Of a stretch of DNA of 53,111 nucleotides, positions 1-7,300 are shown piece after piece. The notes below the pieces were generated by a model. That model was not told the origin of the DNA and made no database searches. It worked only from the letters and a program-made list of their open reading frames with translations. The stretch comes from Nanobdellota archaeon (GTDB lineage Archaea; Nanobdellota; Nanobdellia; Pacearchaeales; GW2011-AR1): the NCBI GenBank assembly GCA_013329055.1, contig DUKY01000020.1, positions 124,012 to 177,122 on the forward strand, written 5' to 3'. The translations under genes were made by a program, and so were the position numbers. Numbering within the stretch: position 1 is the first letter of the stretch; every line of letters starts with the position of its first letter.

Positions 1-112
1 GAAGTCTGGAAGGGTGGCATCTTTATGAGCCTCCTGGGATGCCACATGGAATTAGACACTCGCTGGTTCCCTTTGACCCTCCTCGAAGCATTGAAGGGTG
101 GTATTTTTCAAC
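1..112. repeat. R1 hairpin repeat, copy A (left end cut by window)
   Basis: Begins inside one unit and runs into a second. Hairpin H2 pairs GTGGCATC (14-21) with GATGCCAC (38-45) around a loop containing GAGCCTCCTG. Hairpin H1 of the next unit pairs CCCTTTGA (69-76) with TTGAAGGG (91-98), using two G-U pairs, around a CTCCTCGAA-containing loop. The following H2 is broken off and grades into the leader of the gene starting at 128. Related copies are at 5190-5327 and 6699-7168. Confidence 0.85.
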
Positions 113-127
113 TTGCAGGGGGTTAGT

Positions 128-682
128 ATGAAAACTTATATTGAGCTTTTTGTAATGTTTCATGAAATTTCTAATCATCGTGGGCAGTTGAAGATTCAGC
201 AGATGGCATTTATGTTAATTGCTGTTACTTTGTTTTTTGCGTTAGTGGGGTTATTTTTGATTGTTTTTGTTTTTTCCGGTTTAAAGGAGTCTGCAACTGC
301 GTTGCAGGAAAAAAATGCGTTGTTATTAGTGACTAAACTTGCAAATTCTCCGGAATTTTCTTGCGGGGATGTTTTTTTTGGAAATAAAATTAATTGTGTT
401 GATGCTGATAAAGTTATGATGCTTAAAGAAAATTTGGATAAGTATAAGGGTTTTTGGGGTGTGACGAATATTGAAATTCAAAAAGTTTATCCTGCTGGTA
501 GCAAAGTTTGTACTTTGGCGAATTATCCTAATTGCAGTGTTATTAAGGTTTATTCTTTAGATGAGAGTGGTTATAGTGTGTCGAATTTTGTTTCTTTGTG
601 TAGAAAGGATGTTTTTGATGGTGAGGTTTCAGATAGATGTGAATTAGCTAAATTAATTGTTAGTTATAAGGAGGCTTCATAA
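128..682 (+). CDS. Membrane-anchored small protein, unknown family
   Basis: A 184-residue protein of unrecognised family. It has a short N-terminus (MKTYIELFVMFHEISNHRGQ), one long hydrophobic segment at about residues 28-53, and a roughly 130-residue soluble domain with six Cys that probably faces outside. The ATG at 128 is preferred over an upstream start at 98 because GGGGGT lies just before it and the upstream codons fall inside the R1 repeat. The next gene is also a single-span protein with a pilin-like N-terminus, so the two may belong to one surface or pilus-like assembly; this is inferred from position and topology only. Confidence 0.7.
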   Translation: MKTYIELFVMFHEISNHRGQLKIQQMAFMLIAVTLFFALVGLFLIVFVFSGLKESATALQEKNALLLVTKLANSPEFSCGDVFFGNKINCVDADKVMMLKENLDKYKGFWGVTNIEIQKVYPAGSKVCTLANYPNCSVIKVYSLDESGYSVSNFVSLCRKDVFDGEVSDRCELAKLIVSYKEAS

Positions 683-692
683 ATGGTTTTTT

Positions 693-830
693 AAAAAATT
701 GTTTTTAAGATTTAACAATCCCCGGATTTATTTGTTTGAATTTTAATTCCCACACTCCCCAAATCATTATTTTAATAATGATTTGCCTTTTAGCTGTTAA
801 ATCTTAATTGTTAAGAACAATTTTTGAAAA
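693..830. repeat. R2 MITE-like inverted-repeat element, copy a
   Basis: Long imperfect terminal inverted repeats: AAAAATTGTT plus TAAGATTTAACA on the left, TGTTAAATCTTA plus AACAATTTTT on the right. Inside is a second hairpin with 11-base arms, AAATCATTATT / AATAATGATTT (761-784). The internal blocks AATCCCC, CCCACA and GCCTTT recur in copy b at 7171-7300. No ORF is present. Confidence 0.75.
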
Positions 831-856
831 TCTTTAGATGTTACATAAAAAATAAA

Positions 857-1339
857 ATGATAAATACAAAAAAAGGTCAGGAAGAGATGATGGGTTTTGG
901 TTTAATTATTATTCTTGTTTCTGTGATTTTGTTGGTTTTTTTAGGGCTTACTTTGAGTGTTTCTCAAAAAGATACTGTTGAGAGTTATGAGGTTGAAAGT
1001 TTTATTCAGGCGTCTTTACAGTATACTACTACATGCAAGGATTATTTGGAGTACCTTTCTGTTCAAAAGTTGATTTTTGATTGTAAAAATGGTCGTATGT
1101 GCGTTGAAGGGGGTTCTGCTTGTGAAGTTCTTGAAAAGACTCTTTCTGGGATTATTGAAGAAAGTTGGAAGATTGAAGGGGATAGACCTATTAAAGGGTA
1201 TAATTTGAGGATTTATTCTGATGGAACCGAGATGTTTGTTTTGAACAAGGGGAATTTAACTGGGAATTCAAAAGGGGCTATGCAAGATTTTAGCAGGGGT
1301 GGTAGTTTAATTGAGATTTATTTTTCTGCTTATTATTAA
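857..1339 (+). CDS. Pilin-like single-span secreted protein
   Basis: A 160-residue protein. The N-terminus MINTKKGQEEMMGFG followed by a hydrophobic stretch (about residues 14-35) resembles archaeal class III signal peptides, where a prepilin peptidase cuts after a KKGQ-like motif. The remainder is a small domain with four Cys. The ATG at 857 is chosen over a TTG at 824 because the pilin-like signal would otherwise be internal and because the upstream codons overlap the R2 element. Function is unknown; a pilin-like role is inferred from the N-terminus alone. Confidence 0.65.
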   Translation: MINTKKGQEEMMGFGLIIILVSVILLVFLGLTLSVSQKDTVESYEVESFIQASLQYTTTCKDYLEYLSVQKLIFDCKNGRMCVEGGSACEVLEKTLSGIIEESWKIEGDRPIKGYNLRIYSDGTEMFVLNKGNLTGNSKGAMQDFSRGGSLIEIYFSAYY

Positions 1340-1398
1340 ATTTTAATAACAAAAGATTTATATAATTTCTTACTTTTCTTACAATTAAGGTACTATAA

Positions 1399-1659
1399 AT
1401 GCAAGAAGAAATTAAAGAAATTAGGACTGTAACTATAACGAAAAAAGGTCAAATTTCGATTCCTCGTATAGCAAGGACTCTTGCAGGATTTAAAGAAGGA
1501 ACAAAAATTAGTGTTATTGTTTATTCTGATAGAGTTGAGCTTAAACCTTTTCAAAAAGAAAAATTAAATGATTCTTTAATGTGCATGCTTGCGAGTGAAG
1601 AATCTCTTGCTAAAAATTGGTTATCAAAAGAGGATGAAGAAGCATGGAAAGATTTGTAA
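1399..1659 (+). CDS. AbrB/SpoVT-family antitoxin
   Basis: An 86-residue protein with a swapped-hairpin AbrB DNA-binding domain at residues 8-50 (VTITKKGQISIPRIARTL, then a GFKEGTKI turn and a VELKPF strand). In this family the domain dimerises, binds its own promoter, and the C-terminal tail (here acidic, EESLAKNWLSKEDEEAW) neutralises the toxin. The next gene, a PemK/MazF-type toxin, overlaps its end by 16 bases, so the two are translationally coupled. A TTTATATAA box lies about 40 bases upstream. Confidence is high from both domain and partner. Confidence 0.88.
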   Translation: MQEEIKEIRTVTITKKGQISIPRIARTLAGFKEGTKISVIVYSDRVELKPFQKEKLNDSLMCMLASEESLAKNWLSKEDEEAWKDL

Positions 1660-1976
1660 AAGGGGACATTGTTGTTTTACCTTTTCCTTATACGGATTTT
1701 TTAGGTGCAAAAAAAAGACCTGCTGTTGTGATTGCTAATCTTAAAGGACAAAATGTTATTCTTGCTCAAATAACTACTAACCAAAGAAACGACGAAGATT
1801 TAGTTAGTTTAAGAAAAAAAGATTTTTCTTCTGGTTTTTTAAGTTTAGATAGTTTTATTATGGTTTCTCTTGTTTTTACTTGTGATTCTTCAAGAATTTC
1901 TTATAAAGCAGGGAGAATAAATCCGGAGAAAATCAAAGAAGTTCAAAACAAATTAATTGAAATTTTTACCAGATAA
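1644..1976 (+). CDS. PemK/MazF-family endoribonuclease toxin
   Basis: A 110-residue protein of normal family length. The N-terminal KGDIVVLPFPYTDFLGAKKR and the following PAVVI are the typical PemK/MazF SH3-like beta-barrel, followed by ILAQITTN and a C-terminal helix (NPEKIKEVQNKLIEIF). The family cleaves mRNA at short sequences and is held inactive by its antitoxin. The start overlaps the AbrB-type antitoxin gene by 16 bases in another frame. No truncation is visible, so the pair may be functional. Confidence 0.88.
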   Translation: MERFVKGDIVVLPFPYTDFLGAKKRPAVVIANLKGQNVILAQITTNQRNDEDLVSLRKKDFSSGFLSLDSFIMVSLVFTCDSSRISYKAGRINPEKIKEVQNKLIEIFTR

Positions 1977-1986
1977 AATTTTTTAT

Positions 1987-2340
1987 TTAAATCTTAAGAT
2001 TTATCGTTATTGTTTCAATTACTATTTTAGGTTTATGTCTTATTCTATTTTTTGTTTTTTCTTCTATTAATTCAATAAATCCAAATCTTTCGAGGAGTTT
2101 TATATCGTCATTTACTGATTTAAAATTTCGTTTGAGTTTTTTTGCTAAGTCATAAATTGATGTTGGATTTTGTGTTTTTATTACATTTAACATTCTGGCT
2201 TTTTCATTACTTAATAATTGTCGTAATGCTTGTATTCCTTCAAAATCATATTCTGATTTGTCGGCGGTTTGTTTTTTGAATATTGAAAATGCTCCCTTAT
2301 CTTGCACTAATGTTATCTCTCTTATTTTTGTTTTTGGCAT
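1987..2340 (-). CDS. Winged-helix regulator, HVO_A0114/TumA-like antitoxin
   Basis: A 117-residue protein whose C-terminal half is a winged helix: SNEKARMLNVIKTQNPTSIY, then DLAKKLKRNFKSVNDDIKLL and ERFGFIELIE. This matches archaeal HVO_A0114-type regulators, which often act as the antitoxin of a TumE-like (DUF6516) toxin. No such toxin lies upstream or downstream, so it is an orphan or a lone regulator. A perfect 10-base inverted repeat sits about 45 bases upstream of its start and probably forms an autoregulatory site. It converges with the PemK gene, with only 10 bases between the two ends. Confidence 0.75.
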   Translation of the reverse strand: MPKTKIREITLVQDKGAFSIFKKQTADKSEYDFEGIQALRQLLSNEKARMLNVIKTQNPTSIYDLAKKLKRNFKSVNDDIKLLERFGFIELIEEKTKNRIRHKPKIVIETITINLKI

Positions 2341-2382
2341 ATAATCTTTTCTGATTTTCTTCTATTTTTTCTTCTTTTTTAC

Positions 2383-2407
2383 ATATATATCCTTTTTGGA
2401 TATATAT
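2383..2407. promoter_or_regulatory. Perfect inverted repeat, likely operator
   Basis: ATATATATCC (2383-2392), a TTTTT spacer, then GGATATATAT (2398-2407). It lies 43-67 bases upstream of the start codon of the winged-helix gene at 2340 and overlaps AT-rich promoter-like DNA. A dimeric wHTH protein could bind it; autoregulation is inferred from position. Confidence 0.55.
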
Positions 2408-2488
2408 TATTTTAATATACCCTATCTTAATAAATGTTGTGTTTTGTTTTACCTCAAATGTGTATTAATAGTTGAATGGTTACAAAAG

Positions 2489-2498
2489 ATTTATAAAC
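2489..2498 (+). promoter_or_regulatory. S-layer gene TATA box
   Basis: GATTTATAAA is a good archaeal TATA element. Transcription would begin near 2515-2520, about 235 bases before the S-layer start codon, giving an unusually long leader compared with the leaderless look of most genes here. Confidence 0.6.
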
Positions 2499-2501
2499 TA
2501 A

Positions 2502-2754
2502 ACCCCTAAAAAGGGGGTCTTTTTTAGACCTTAGTCCATGGGGTATAGCAAGCTTTTTAAACGAAAATTCATTTATCATCTTATTAACACCTTAGGGTGT
2601 TCTATAGGGAGTCAAATGTTAAGCATAAAAAAAAATACATGCGAGCGTTCATATTCAACTAGTAATGGAGTATACCCTATTACTTCAAACTGGGTGATAA
2701 TTGCCTTCGGCAATATGTTTGATAGAACTGAAAGGGGGTTTAAAAAAAATAAAA
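2502..2754 (+). promoter_or_regulatory. Long structured 5' leader of the S-layer mRNA
   Basis: No credible ORF occupies this stretch. Foldable elements in order: GGTCT/AGACC hairpin (2516-2530) at the expected RNA 5' end; long-range pairing of GGGGTATA (2540-2547) with TATACCCT (2671-2678); inside it a 6-bp hairpin AACACC-ttag-GGTGTT (2586-2601); then ATTGCC-ttc-GGCAAT (2700-2714). A purine-rich AAAGGGGG (2731-2738) about 16 bases before the ATG may be the ribosome-binding site. The leader may stabilise a very abundant mRNA or control its translation. Confidence 0.5.
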
Positions 2755-5109
2755 ATGAAAATTAATTTTAGAAAAATTTCGGCTGTTTTAGCTAGCGGTA
2801 TTATGACTGTTTCTGGTGCTGCTTTTGCTGCTGCTGCAAATTACCCTGCTCCTTTTATAGCTAGTGGTAGTGCAGATGTTGCAATTGTATATGGTACTGG
2901 TGCTGGAGTATCTAGTTTAGATTTAATCCAAGCTGGTAACATCCAAACTGATTTACAATCAAGTATGGGTACTACTGGAACTACAACTACAACAAGTGGT
3001 GAAGGTGATTCTTTCTTAATTGAAAGAACTTCAACTAAATACCACGTAGGTGATAACATTACTACTCTTTTTTCTAGTTTTGATGAAGATGAATTACCAA
3101 CTCTTTTGGCTGATGGAAAATACATCGATAATGATAACGATGAATTTGACTACACTCAAAAAATTACTGTTGGTTCGAATGTTCAACTAACTATGTATGA
3201 AGATGATGATGATCAACCTGTTGTTGGTTTTAAGATTCCATCTGGAGAAACTGTTCTAACTTACTTATTGACTATGGCTGATCAACCTTTGATAGCTGAT
3301 TTAGAAACAAGTGATATGACCTTAATGGGTAAAGATTACTATATTTTAGATCAAACTACTTCAGGATCTAACCAAGTTTTTACTTTCTTAGATTCTGCAG
3401 TTTCAACTGTTCTTAGTGAAGGTGAAACAACTACTATTGGTGGAAAGACTGCATCTATTGAATTTATTGGAACTAATCAAGTTAAATTAAGTATTGATGG
3501 TGAAGTAACTAACACTTTGGGTGCTAGTGAAACTTATAAATTAAAGGATGGTTCTTACATTGGTATTAAGGATGTTCTTTATTCTTCAAAAGAAGGATCA
3601 GTTAGTAAAGTTGAATTTAGTCTTGGATCTGGTAAATTAAAAATTACTAGTGGCTCTGAAGTTCAAATGAACGACAATGCTGTTTCAGGACTTACAGGTA
3701 CTATTGCTAATACAACAACTCAACTTACAAGTATTAGTTTAGTTTGGGTTGCTGATGATGATTTATTCATTACTGAGGATAGTGAAATTATTATGCCTGG
3801 TTTTGGAGCTGTTAAATTATCATATGGCGGACTAAATTATCCAGCTGAGGAAACTATTGAAGTTAAGCAAGGTAGTGAAACTTATGCAACTTTGAATGAT
3901 TTCCCACTTAAAGATACTGAAGAAGATATCCATTTCTTGTACAGTACAACTGCTGGAGCATTTGTTGGTATTGGTAAGGATAGTAATGAGTTATTAGCAA
4001 CTGCTGCTTCAGGATCAAATATTACTTTTGATGCTGATACTACAAAATATTTCATCGCTTCTTGGAGTGATGGTAGTGATGCAGAATCTTATGTAATGCA
4101 ATTTACAAATTTCATTACAGAAGGTACTGATGAAAAGGCAGATTTGCAATATCTTAAAGATGGTGCTTGGGTTGATAAGAAAACAGGTGTAAAAAACGCT
4201 GATACTATTTCAATTGGCAATGTTGATTTATATATCCACAATGTTAGCAATGTACAAAATGATGTAATTGTAGGAAATAATTCAGTGAACACAAACTTCA
4301 ATACACTTTATTCAAAAGAAGGTATGAAAGTTTTCTTACCATATTTAGCTGCAAACACTAGTGTTGCACCAGGTGCATTTAATGCAACTGCTTTAGGTGC
4401 TGGTGGTCAAGTTGGACATAACGCTACATCTTTCTATTTAACAATGGTAGAAGAAGATAAATCAGAGAATAAAGCTTCTGGTGATACAATCAATTTAACT
4501 ATTGGTTGGGATTCTTCAACTACTGCAGAAGTAGAAGTTAGTGCTTATAGTACAACAAATACTGATGGTGCTTCAAAAGAAATTGAATCAACTGATGTAT
4601 TTAGAGATTTCACTTACTCAGAACTTGCTACAGAACTTTTATGGAATAAACCTACTTCAGGTCAAAAAAGCATAAAGGTAATGTACCACGGTGATGAGGT
4701 ATCGGCTGATGTATATATTACATCTCCAACTGTATCTGTTTCGACAAGTACAGGTGCTAGCTCTTTAGGCGAAGTTTTAGTTAAAGATAGTGAAGTAGCT
4801 TCAGTAAGTACTAAGAACTTAATTATTGTAGGTGGTAGTTGTATTAATTCAGCTGCTGCTAGCGTATTAGGTGGAACTTACTGTGGTGCTGCGTTTACAC
4901 AATCAACTGGTGTTGGATCAGGAGAATTCTTGATCAAAGGATTTACAGGAACAACTGTTACTAGTAAATTAGCATTAGTTGTAGCTGGTTATGACGCTGC
5001 AGACACTGTGAATGCTGCTACTTATTTGAGAACTCAAACTGTTGATACTAGTAAAGAGTACAAAGGTACATCTTCTACAAGTGCTACAATGGTAACAACC
5101 ACTGCATAA
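2755..5109 (+). CDS. S-layer protein
   Basis: A 784-residue secreted protein. The start at 2755 gives a clean signal peptide (MKINFRKIS, hydrophobic core, AAFA cleavage site near residue 25). Directly after it comes YPAPFIASGSADVAIVYG (residues 29-46), the N-terminal signature of archaeal S-layer proteins. The rest is Thr/Ser/Gly/Asp-rich beta-type sequence with several N-glycosylation sequons and few Cys. No C-terminal membrane segment or sorting-signal-like tail is visible (it ends MVTTTA), so anchoring is probably by lattice or partner contacts. The long structured leader and the R1 repeat 80 bases after the stop are unusual. It is probably the main envelope protein. Confidence 0.82.
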   Translation: MKINFRKISAVLASGIMTVSGAAFAAAANYPAPFIASGSADVAIVYGTGAGVSSLDLIQAGNIQTDLQSSMGTTGTTTTTSGEGDSFLIERTSTKYHVGDNITTLFSSFDEDELPTLLADGKYIDNDNDEFDYTQKITVGSNVQLTMYEDDDDQPVVGFKIPSGETVLTYLLTMADQPLIADLETSDMTLMGKDYYILDQTTSGSNQVFTFLDSAVSTVLSEGETTTIGGKTASIEFIGTNQVKLSIDGEVTNTLGASETYKLKDGSYIGIKDVLYSSKEGSVSKVEFSLGSGKLKITSGSEVQMNDNAVSGLTGTIANTTTQLTSISLVWVADDDLFITEDSEIIMPGFGAVKLSYGGLNYPAEETIEVKQGSETYATLNDFPLKDTEEDIHFLYSTTAGAFVGIGKDSNELLATAASGSNITFDADTTKYFIASWSDGSDAESYVMQFTNFITEGTDEKADLQYLKDGAWVDKKTGVKNADTISIGNVDLYIHNVSNVQNDVIVGNNSVNTNFNTLYSKEGMKVFLPYLAANTSVAPGAFNATALGAGGQVGHNATSFYLTMVEEDKSENKASGDTINLTIGWDSSTTAEVEVSAYSTTNTDGASKEIESTDVFRDFTYSELATELLWNKPTSGQKSIKVMYHGDEVSADVYITSPTVSVSTSTGASSLGEVLVKDSEVASVSTKNLIIVGGSCINSAAASVLGGTYCGAAFTQSTGVGSGEFLIKGFTGTTVTSKLALVVAGYDAADTVNAATYLRTQTVDTSKEYKGTSSTSATMVTTTA

Positions 5110-5189
5110 GTTTAAGTAAAACAAATTTATTTTTTTTATTTTTCTTTTTCTTTTTTTTTAAGGTCTTGGTGGAAGCCTTATAAAATGAA

Positions 5190-5327
5190 AGGAACCCCTT
5201 GGTTCCCTTCAACCCTCCTCGAAATATTGAAGGGTGATATCTCGTTGAGCCTTCTTGGATATCACATGGAATGTGAACCCCTTGGTTCCCTTCAACCCTC
5301 CTCGAAGTTTGGAAGGGTGGCATCTTG
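5190..5327. repeat. R1 hairpin repeat, copy B (downstream of S-layer gene)
   Basis: One full unit plus a partial one. H1: CCCTTCAA (5205-5212) pairs perfectly with TTGAAGGG (5227-5234). H2: GTGATATC (5234-5241) pairs with GATATCAC (5258-5265). Compared with GTGGCATC/GATGCCAC in the other copies, two base pairs differ with both partners changed. The second unit starts again with AACCCCTTGGTTCCC and breaks off inside H2 (GTGGCATCTTGGG). Confidence 0.85.
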
Positions 5328-5366
5328 GGTAGGATAAGAAGATTTGCTTAATCTTTTCAGGAAATC

Positions 5367-5672
5367 TCAATGTTTATACCCAAAAACTTTATCATAAAAT
5401 CTCCATCTGTCTGCTAATTCTATTCTCCAAACATTCTCTACATCAAATTTCTGGATATATTTTGGTGGAATTTGTTTTTTTGGAACTTGGTCACCTGCAA
5501 AAGGATTTTGTTTTAATAACTCTCTTGCTCTATTTATTGACCTTAACAATGTTTGATGAAAAGAGTTATCAATTCCTTTTAATTTTTCTTTTCCAACTAT
5601 CTTATTAAGTTCTTGATAAATATTATCTGCTTCTTTCGAAAGTTTAACGCTAATTTCTTTTCCTTGGAACAT
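5367..5672 (-). CDS. RelE/ParE-like toxin, probably internally deleted
   Basis: A 101-residue protein. The N-terminal helices (VKLSKEADNIYQELNKIVGK; INRARELLKQNPFAGDQVPK) and the strand VWRIELADRWRF are typical of archaeal RelE-like toxins. In relatives the next stretch is a strand pair with a second hydrophobic strand before a ...YDKVFGY end. Here RWRF joins directly to YDKVFGYKH, so roughly 20-25 core residues appear lost in frame. The start overlaps the upstream gene by one base (TAATG). The 17.4-kb paralogue retains an equivalent of the missing strand (NEFQILQIVLEVY). The fold is probably broken. Confidence 0.6.
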   Translation of the reverse strand: MFQGKEISVKLSKEADNIYQELNKIVGKEKLKGIDNSFHQTLLRSINRARELLKQNPFAGDQVPKKQIPPKYIQKFDVENVWRIELADRWRFYDKVFGYKH

Positions 5673-5944
5673 TATATCTCTCTTGCATTTTCAATGGCCT
5701 TTTTTAATTTAGGACTAGGATTGTAAATCCATAATATCCCTTTATGGCTATCAATTATCATACCTTTTTCTTCCAGATATTTTAAAATTAAGTTTAGAGT
5801 TTGGTGCATAATCTTAGAAGGCAATCTTCTTTTAAGTTCTTCTCTGTCTATCATTTTATCTGCTTCTCTCAAAATTCTTTCTACCATTAGCATAGTTCTT
5901 AAACTTGGATAGTGTATTATCTCCTGATCATTATATATTTCCAT
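5672..5944 (-). CDS. Small winged-helix-like partner of RelE-like toxin
   Basis: A 90-residue protein, clearly related to the one at 17109-17384: both share (H)(Y/F)Pxl..ML/ILMVE, an R.EL.k.LP segment, Q T.NLILKYLEE.. and IlWI. The pattern of three helices followed by a beta wing (KGMIIDSHKGILWIYNPSPK) suggests a winged helix. Both copies sit just before a RelE-like gene, so an antitoxin role is likely. The start is preceded by TTTATATAAACTTATATATA, similar to the promoter of the 17.1-kb copy. Confidence 0.6.
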   Translation of the reverse strand: MEIYNDQEIIHYPSLRTMLMVERILREADKMIDREELKRRLPSKIMHQTLNLILKYLEEKGMIIDSHKGILWIYNPSPKLKKAIENAREI

Positions 5945-6115
5945 ACTAATTTTTATATAAACTTATATATAAACATTTCGTTTTTATTTTTTACAAACTT
6001 CAAGAATAAAATAAAAATTTATAATAAATCAAATTTGTTCTAGAGCCTTATAAAATTTAAGTAAGATTTTTATACTCTTTTTATTTTTTATTTAGATTCT
6101 TAGAGGACTAAAAGT

Positions 6116-6697
6116 ATGAAAAAAATTTATTCAAAAGAAGCATTAGAAAAAAAACAGAAACGGAATCAAATGATTCTTGCTGTAGTTTTAATCCTTGTAA
6201 TGTTTGGTAGTTCTTTTGGAATTGTTGTTAATTCTTTTGGTGAAGATTCAAAAAATAAGGATGTGACTTATAATGGTTTTAAATTTTTAAATCAAAATGG
6301 TTATTGGATTTTAGATCAGGGTAATTATCAATTTGTATTCAAGGAAAATCCTAAAGATTTGAAAAATTTAAGTGTTTATGTTGGTGAATTAAATTATCTA
6401 AGTTCTTATTCTGGTTTGCCTCTTTATTTGTCTTCTGAGAATTATGATGTGAATTCTGAGATTTATATTAATTTTAATCAGGTTGTTCAGCGAATGCAAT
6501 TAGCATGTTTTGGTAATGATACTATTTGTGAAGAAGACCTTCCGGTTAAAGATTGCAGTAGCAATTTTATTATTGTAAAAGAAAGTACTGTAGGCAGTAT
6601 TATTCAGGAAGGTGGATGTGTATTTATTGAGGGTCCTAAAGAAGATTTAGTTAAAATTACTGATGAATTTTTATTGAAGATTATTGGGGTCAAATAA
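6116..6697 (+). CDS. Membrane-anchored protein, paralogue of 7362-8093
   Basis: A 193-residue protein with a basic N-terminus, one membrane span at about residues 19-39 and an exported domain with five Cys. The core V.YNGFKF...GYWIL...NYQFVFKENPKDLKNL resembles the gene at 7362 (YRGVTFDV...LVLY...NDPRKLKNIPF), so the two are paralogues. A GAGG element sits 12-15 bases before the ATG. Function is unknown; topology suggests an envelope protein. The two genes are separated by the R1-C array and an R2 element. Confidence 0.7.
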   Translation: MKKIYSKEALEKKQKRNQMILAVVLILVMFGSSFGIVVNSFGEDSKNKDVTYNGFKFLNQNGYWILDQGNYQFVFKENPKDLKNLSVYVGELNYLSSYSGLPLYLSSENYDVNSEIYINFNQVVQRMQLACFGNDTICEEDLPVKDCSSNFIIVKESTVGSIIQEGGCVFIEGPKEDLVKITDEFLLKIIGVK

Positions 6698-6698
6698 A

Positions 6699-7168
6699 AG
6701 ACACCCGCTGGTTTCTTTTAAACTTCCTCAAATTGCGGTTCGGTGGCATCTCTATGAGCCTTCGTGGATGCCACAAGCACGACGATTATATTTTTAGTAT
6801 TAATGCCGTCGTGCATAAAAGGCACCCTTGGTTCTTTTTGAATCTCCTCAAAACACTGAAAGGTGGCATCTTTATGAGCCTTCTGGGATGCCACAAGCAC
6901 GACAATTATGTTTTTTGAAATTGATGTTGTCGTGCGTAAAAGACACCCGCTGGTTTCTTTTAAACTTCCTCAAATTGTGGTTCGGTGGCATCTCTATGAG
7001 CCTTCGTGGATGTCACAAGCACGACAATTATGTTTTTTGAAATTGATGTTGTCGTGCGTAAAAGACACCCGCTGGTTTCTTTTTGAATCTCCTCAAAACA
7101 CTGAAAGGTGGCATCTTTATGAGCCTCCTGTAATGCCACATGGAACGTGAATCCTTTGGTTCTTTTTG
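6699..7168. repeat. R1 tandem array, copy C (121-base period)
   Basis: Units start at 6699, 6820, 6941 and 7063 (spacing 121, 121, 122); a fifth begins near 7149 and is interrupted by an R2 element. Each unit begins with GACACCC or GGCACCC and carries three hairpins: H1; H2 GTGGCATC/GATGCCAC (6743-6750/6767-6774 in unit 1); and H3 GCACGACG/CGTCGTGC (6777-6784/6807-6814). In units 2 and 3, H3 is GCACGACA/TGTCGTGC, a paired change. Unit 3 H2 has GATGTCAC, a G-U pair. Unit 4 lacks H3 and continues as in copies A and B (CACATGGAA). Short ORFs on both strands are by-products of the repetition. Confidence 0.9.
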
Positions 7169-7170
7169 AA

Positions 7171-7300
7171 AATTATTTTTAAGATTTAACAATTCCCTGA
7201 ATTTTTTTGCTTGAATTTTTATCCCCACATCCCCTCATTATTGCAAAGCAATAATTCGCCTTTAAGTTGTTAAATCTTATTATTAAAACAATTTTTTTTG
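7171..7300. repeat. R2 MITE-like element, copy b, inside an R1 unit
   Basis: Terminal inverted repeat AAGATTTAACA (7181-7191) / TGTTAAATCTTA (7268-7279), internal CCCACA and a small hairpin ATTATTGC-aa-GCAATAAT. On the left, R1 sequence runs to GGTTCTTTTTGAA; on the right, R1-like TTTTGAGCTTCCTCAAATTGC resumes at about 7294. The element therefore appears inserted in H1 of the fifth R1 unit. Copy a is at 693-830. Confidence 0.72.

Follow-up and report, generated by a model that had tools for sequence, protein, structure and literature searches.

R1, a dispersed and probably mobile palindrome of Pacearchaeota with a translation-compatible minus strand

The stretch of DNA analysed here, 53,111 nucleotides of a Pacearchaeota genome referred to below as the window, corresponds to C18:124012-177122 of a metagenome-assembled genome (MAG) of 1.19 Mb in 26 contigs that is about 85% complete. 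It carries several copies of a palindromic repeat, R1, in which a hairpin (H0) is joined by a linker to a second hairpin (H2) at the other end. The copies in the window all lie on the strand printed there, called R1(+), and R1(-) denotes the reverse strand. The 3' part of a first copy, with H2, occupies positions 1-46; the 5' remainder precedes the window, beyond an NN gap (C18:124010-124011) that falls inside the copy, and the copy starts 3 nt past the TAA stop of an open reading frame (ORF) of 311 amino acids. A second copy at 54-109 is truncated to H0 and linker, without H2. R1 also follows the same upstream gene in four relatives (G003, G074, G083 and G042; gene end matched by eye). A full copy at 5188-5266, 78 nt past the stop of an S-layer gene, is followed by a truncated one at 5275-5327. 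Finally, an array holds units at 6697-6775, 6818-6895, 6939-7017 and 7061-7140, after which a truncated R1 start runs to about 7168; the first A of its first unit is the third base of the TAA stop of the ORF at 6116-6697. Between the units stand H3 hairpins at 6777-6814 (stem GCACGACG / CGTCGTGC), 6897-6935 (stem GCACGACA / TGTCGTGC, compensated relative to the first) and 7019-7057, and a partial H3 occurs at C11. The first-pass annotation of this DNA had reported repeats at 1-112, 5190-5327 and 6699-7168, all of which are present, and a change of H3 from GACG/CGTC to GACA/TGTC that is directly visible. The 121-base tandem period it described is found in the 6.7-kb array, where units are spaced by 120, 122 and 123 nt, and not elsewhere.

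These copies belong to a far wider family. As BLAST queries, the 6.7-kb array and the 5.2-kb copy found 47 and 32 places in the same genome, respectively. A covariance model trained on 27 copies, the search that the first-pass annotation had proposed, gave 56 matches to the family of about 80 nt in its own genome. It also detected R1 in 20 further genera of the Pacearchaeota family to which this genome belongs, a total of 21 among 140 relatives, and a second model later gave 51 further copies. Scanning 84,980 GTDB genomes for the conserved R1 pattern returned 26 stretches, all from Pacearchaeota, Nanoarchaeota or unclassified archaeal MAGs. The same pattern had zero matches in IMG/VR, and a viral origin was rejected on this ground; the window together with 20 R1 loci gave no match to any known structured RNA of Rfam 15 at gathering score. 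Contigs C2, C5 and C10 also terminate in R1, and assembly across the repeats may thus be unreliable.

In R1(+) order, the element begins with H0 at the TAAAAG end, continues through a linker with a conserved TCCTCRAA, and closes with H2, both hairpins being strongly conserved. The H0 arms read AAAGGAACC-loop-GGTTCCTTT, with variants AAAAGAACC/GGTTCTTTT, AAAACAACC/GGTTGTTTT and GAGGACACC/GGTGTCCTC, while H2 has an arm GGTGGCATC or GGCGATTTC, a loop containing GCCTYC and then the complement. In 125 distinct copies, the 13 pairs of H0 and H2 are formed in 93.3% of cells, as compared with 77.4% after shuffling; both-sided changes occur in 12 of the 13 pairs, and doubly changed cells number 321, against 116 when shuffled and 9-39 with partners slid by 1-3 columns. 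The compensatory changes first noticed in H2 (of the GTGGCATC/GATGCCAC type) are thus borne out over the family and extend to H0. A further stem, H1, had been drawn around CTCCTC, but, in contrast to H0 and H2, permuting the partners gives stems as long as its best form, and it does not stand as a conserved stem; the covarying 5' stem is H0, just upstream, which had been overlooked. The earlier notion that R1 is REP-like, dispersed and selected for its fold gains support from the copy number, the spread over 20 other genera and the covariation. Some copies hold additional hairpin modules at set positions, as nested insertions (e.g. C13:8595-8954, C16:55330-55792 and C5:1-329): one, after GGTTTC, consists of CAGAAAATTT..AAATTTTCTG plus TTCAAAAG..CTTTTGAA, and another, in the H2 loop, of ACTCAAGCCCACACTTGC..GCAAGTGTAAACTTTCG.

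Correction of palindromes at the DNA level can be another source of such covariation. If quasipalindromes were corrected by template switching in hairpins, there would be no selection for a folded RNA and R1 would be only a selfish DNA palindrome. Consistent with this, G-U makes up only about 3% of H0 and H2 pairs, the standard pairs being nearly all Watson-Crick, and single copies barely out-fold dinucleotide shuffles (z of -1.0 to -2.7). Mismatches on R1(+) are more often A.C than G.U (37 vs 18), which disfavours RNA folding of that strand. However, A.C on the plus strand is G-U in minus-strand RNA, so that any selection on RNA more likely acts on that strand. In addition, the ribosome-binding signals and leader ORFs described next point to a strand that is transcribed and translated, and we consider an origin of the pairing purely in DNA correction rather unlikely.

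The position of R1 relative to start codons is far from random. We call a copy start-flush when the ATG of an ORF of 60 codons or more lies 1-5 nt after the H0 end of R1(-). This is so for 57 of 150 copies (32 at 2 nt and 18 at 3 nt), as compared with 2 of 150 for the other R1 end and 1.7% of random positions. The genes behind these copies, named by eye from their N-termini, include those for eS1, PheT, the RFC small subunit, SMC, EF-1A, Mre11, a uS10-like protein and others. With such neighbours, and tRNAs besides, the role specific to surface-protein genes suggested at first does not hold; nor does a function mainly in 3' ends, given that only about 14 copies lie flush after stops. For eS1, R1 or a degenerate form of it was seen by eye flush before the ATG in its own genome and in seven relatives (G013, G023, G027, G043, G048, G054 and G064), and in most other genera examined an upstream stop falls within a few nucleotides of the ATG; the pattern looks like insertion of R1 at an operon junction.

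The end hairpin of start-flush copies resembles a ribosome-binding site. Taking Shine-Dalgarno (SD) strength as the energy with which the 16S tail ATCACCTCCT pairs to the final 18 nt of R1(-), the mean is -9.4 kcal/mol for start-flush copies vs -5.9 for the others (p=4.5e-7; p values here are descriptive), and the difference holds within the copies of its own genome (p=0.006) and within those of relatives (p=7e-6). Among the 51 new copies of the second model, 34 are start-flush, with SD pairing of -6.6 vs -4.3 (p=6e-4). By a mechanical test, a leader ORF that starts upstream and reads through R1(-) accompanies 39 of 58 start-flush and 31 of 90 other copies. In start-flush copies the leader stops no more than a few codons from the ATG of the gene, mostly at -2 to +13, and often the two codons overlap. 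The leaders of 25 of 58 start-flush copies begin with MK, MI or MN, as against 3 of 90 others (hand count, Fisher). A promoter model, with a TATA element inside R1 at a fixed distance from the ATG, found no support in base composition, as TATA-like words lie upstream at varying distances.

Taken by itself, this placement might suggest that R1(-) serves above all as a cis-regulatory 5' leader RNA of core genes, made up of a leader ORF and an SD hairpin, inherited vertically and occasionally duplicated, with the intergenic, tRNA and in-gene copies as by-products. The frequency of start-flush copies in both sets, the biased leader starts and the occurrence of R1 before the same gene in several genera (eS1, PheT, RFC and SMC) all speak for it. 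However, only 3 start-flush copies were found among the 28 intact ones in its own genome, R1 is missing from most genera of the family, and in-frame inserts in six unrelated enzymes, arrays, nesting and tRNA introns would not be expected of a leader. We therefore judge an origin as a leader to be unlikely.

Indeed, six enzyme genes, identified by Pfam, are interrupted by R1, always by R1(-) and always with the frame left open: PolB in its own genome, G012 and G013; Ogt in G039 and G054; an RsmB/F-type methylase in its own genome; Dus in G074; PCMT in G078; and an EndoIII-like HhH-GPD protein in G083. Because both strands have open frames (on average about 1.5 for R1(-) and 1.3 for R1(+)), the orientation in genes carries little weight by itself. 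Occupied and empty sites occur within one gene: of the 69 genomes with an Ogt match only 2 were found to hold R1 there, and for PolB 3 of 126. The PolB tree is too poorly resolved for insertions to be counted. In the Ogt alignment 26 residues are cleanly inserted next to PCHR, and in an AlphaFold model of Ogt with the insert the core is predicted confidently and the insert with low confidence. R1-encoded residues in PolB include HRDITGGSEKCHR. Lengths differ among genera by multiples of three. A conserved encoded peptide was rejected, as the frame in which R1(-) is read varies among genes, Dus included, which indicates that no particular peptide is selected. The initial concern that the copies might be fragments of a coding gene is met by the reverse situation, in which R1 has been inserted into genes, yet in frame. 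Other, unrelated in-frame inserts of 10-25 residues lie in loops of Ogt (G013, G035 and G063) and of PolB (G029), and further palindrome families may insert there likewise.

R1 is also found at stop codons and at tRNAs. In 7 copies, including the window unit at 6697, the first A of R1 completes the stop (TA|A or TG|A), and 6 more copies start 2-5 nt past one. ARAGORN places R1 within the introns of tRNA-Lys(CTT) and tRNA-Ser(GGA), called as 85 and 110 nt; at several other tRNAs, a gap of 2-3 nt separates R1 from the 5' or 3' end. From the intron copies it would seem that R1 can live with tRNA splicing in these archaea, or makes use of it. With H0 lying 1-5 nt from ATGs, -1 to 5 nt from stops and this close to tRNA ends, R1 could be thought of as an RNA processing mark, at which a nuclease acting on H0 trims transcripts, maturing tRNA ends, forming 3' ends and leaving mRNAs leaderless. 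However, both strands occur, leaving no single shared RNA motif, and cutting would lose the SD sequence in H0 and the leader ORFs, which makes this account very unlikely. Least credible is a mobile archaeal intron cut from RNA by bulge-helix-bulge splicing (EndA, RtcB): the two tRNA cases fit, their sequences showing CTCT/GGAG and TTGG/CCAA as pairings of exon with intron, but all six protein genes are open through R1 without its removal and with lengths differing by multiples of three, hand drawing gave no consistent bulge-helix-bulge at the PolB and Ogt sites, and splicing needs neither frame nor orientation.

As for mobility, the join of R1 to host DNA on the H0 side falls at a T[A/G] step, and R1 is nested in a second repeat, R2, at TTTAACTA^ (R2 copies at C18:86698, C19:26869 and C19:37208). 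Long flanking duplications of 39, 21, 19 and 14 nt accompany four copies, and several imperfect ones were seen by eye. At C21:15238-15454 of its own genome and in three other stretches, a gene start is partly repeated in tandem on both sides of R1 (MITYNDIYEAA.. and MKNKRGWIRIVE..), and the duplicated end recurs as an inverted copy that flanks the element. R2 is also present in the window, at 689-830 and 7163-7298. It reads TTTTTAAGATTTAAC...GTTAAATCTTAA with inner hairpins that vary, and the R1 array is directly followed by the copy at 7163. Two overlapping small ORFs at 1399-1976 are, by eye, a candidate AbrB-type antitoxin and a MazF/PemK-type toxin.

On the sequence evidence, which is what the whole analysis comprises, we lean towards reading R1, as the most economical account, as a non-autonomous mobile palindrome of Pacearchaeota, about 80 nt long, with a translation-compatible minus strand that terminates in a ribosome-binding hairpin. 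The dispersal of the element, its occupied and empty sites, its nesting in another repeat and the covariation of H0 and H2 are direct features of the sequences compared, as are the readable minus strand and the SD-like sequence of H0 before genes. Insertion at a cistron border would be tolerated since R1 restores the stop (TA|A or TG|A) or brings a ribosome-binding site, and insertion in surface loops would be tolerated likewise, the minus strand being readable as codons. Before genes, a ribosome finishing the leader ORF may open H0, free the SD sequence and start the next gene, and selection would then strengthen the SD in start-flush copies. Spread would be by an enzyme acting in trans or by template switching in replication.

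Several points weigh against this interpretation. Most copies lack a target duplication, and sites common to several genera (eS1, PheT and the site at window 1-112) point to old elements that were retained and not to recent jumps. A search of its own MAG for a mobilising gene gave none: at 85% completeness, it has neither a Y1 transposase (PF01797) nor a reverse transcriptase (RVT_1); the earlier idea of a REP-associated tyrosine transposase (RAYT) thus fails in this genome. Of the 20 other genomes with R1, 10 encode PF01797 and a single weak fragment was also seen, and presence of the family is not significantly linked to R1 (11 of 21 genomes with R1 vs 20 of 64, p=0.12). A resident Y1/RAYT enzyme or reverse transcriptase was rejected as mobiliser on these grounds. 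R1 as the end of an autonomous insertion sequence (IS) was also rejected, as Y1 genes near R1 in G003 and G013 belong to separate IS200-like elements. SD pairing is weak in some start-flush copies (-3.6), the proximity of H0 to tRNA ends is left unexplained by SD and coupling, and the tests count copies as independent, which is not fully true.

Among known systems, the closest analogue may be the Rickettsia palindromic elements (RPE), which are about 150 bp long and form ten families, with 44 insertions in R. conorii (PMC10969869). Like them, R1 is a short dispersed palindrome found in frame in unrelated protein genes, here the six Pfam-identified enzymes, of a reduced genome; no homology is claimed. 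Unlike them, it is archaeal, about 80 nt long, start-flush with an SD sequence in its end hairpin, and present in tRNA introns and intergenic arrays. REPs, or repetitive extragenic palindromes, span 20-50 nt, carry a 5' GTAG tetranucleotide and have a TnpA-REP gene (PMC8266576). R1 resembles REP, BIME and REPIN elements as a high-copy palindrome, often in arrays, with conserved loops and varying stems, and intergenic at gene ends. However, no GTAG lies 5' of the R1 palindrome, the left-flank consensus being T[AG], copies occur inside genes, and its own MAG has no Y1 gene. Similarly, R1 is small and non-autonomous, with a clean join at a short host motif and end hairpins, like miniature inverted-repeat transposable elements (MITEs) and IS200/IS605-derived palindromes, but has no terminal inverted repeats (AAAG.. 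at one end is not an inverted copy of ..CACA at the other), no fixed target duplication (single-event flanking duplications of at least 14 nt in 4 copies only, of variable length) and no partner IS found. On the features tested, membership of the REP or MITE classes is not supported. ERIC and the pneumococcal BOX are composite repeats with internal insertion sites, and R1 would be analogous to them as a modular repeat that holds further hairpin modules in its loops. Inside genes R1 would work as an RPE-like element, and before genes as a leader whose SD is coupled.

The mobile palindrome could go further than this and act as a translation-initiation cassette, in which leader ORF and SD hairpin move or are copied to the starts of essential informational genes across Pacearchaeota genera, rewiring their translation, while the same element survives in enzymes and tRNA introns as readable codons; we regard this as possible but doubtful. 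For annotation, PolB, Ogt and other enzymes here carry inserts of 25-29 residues that are not protein domains. An archaeal counterpart, in a reduced DPANN lineage, of the Rickettsia-type in-frame palindromes that bacteria are known to have would show that this strategy has arisen independently, and placement of R1 before starts with a built-in SD hairpin would be a route for selfish DNA into standard gene expression.

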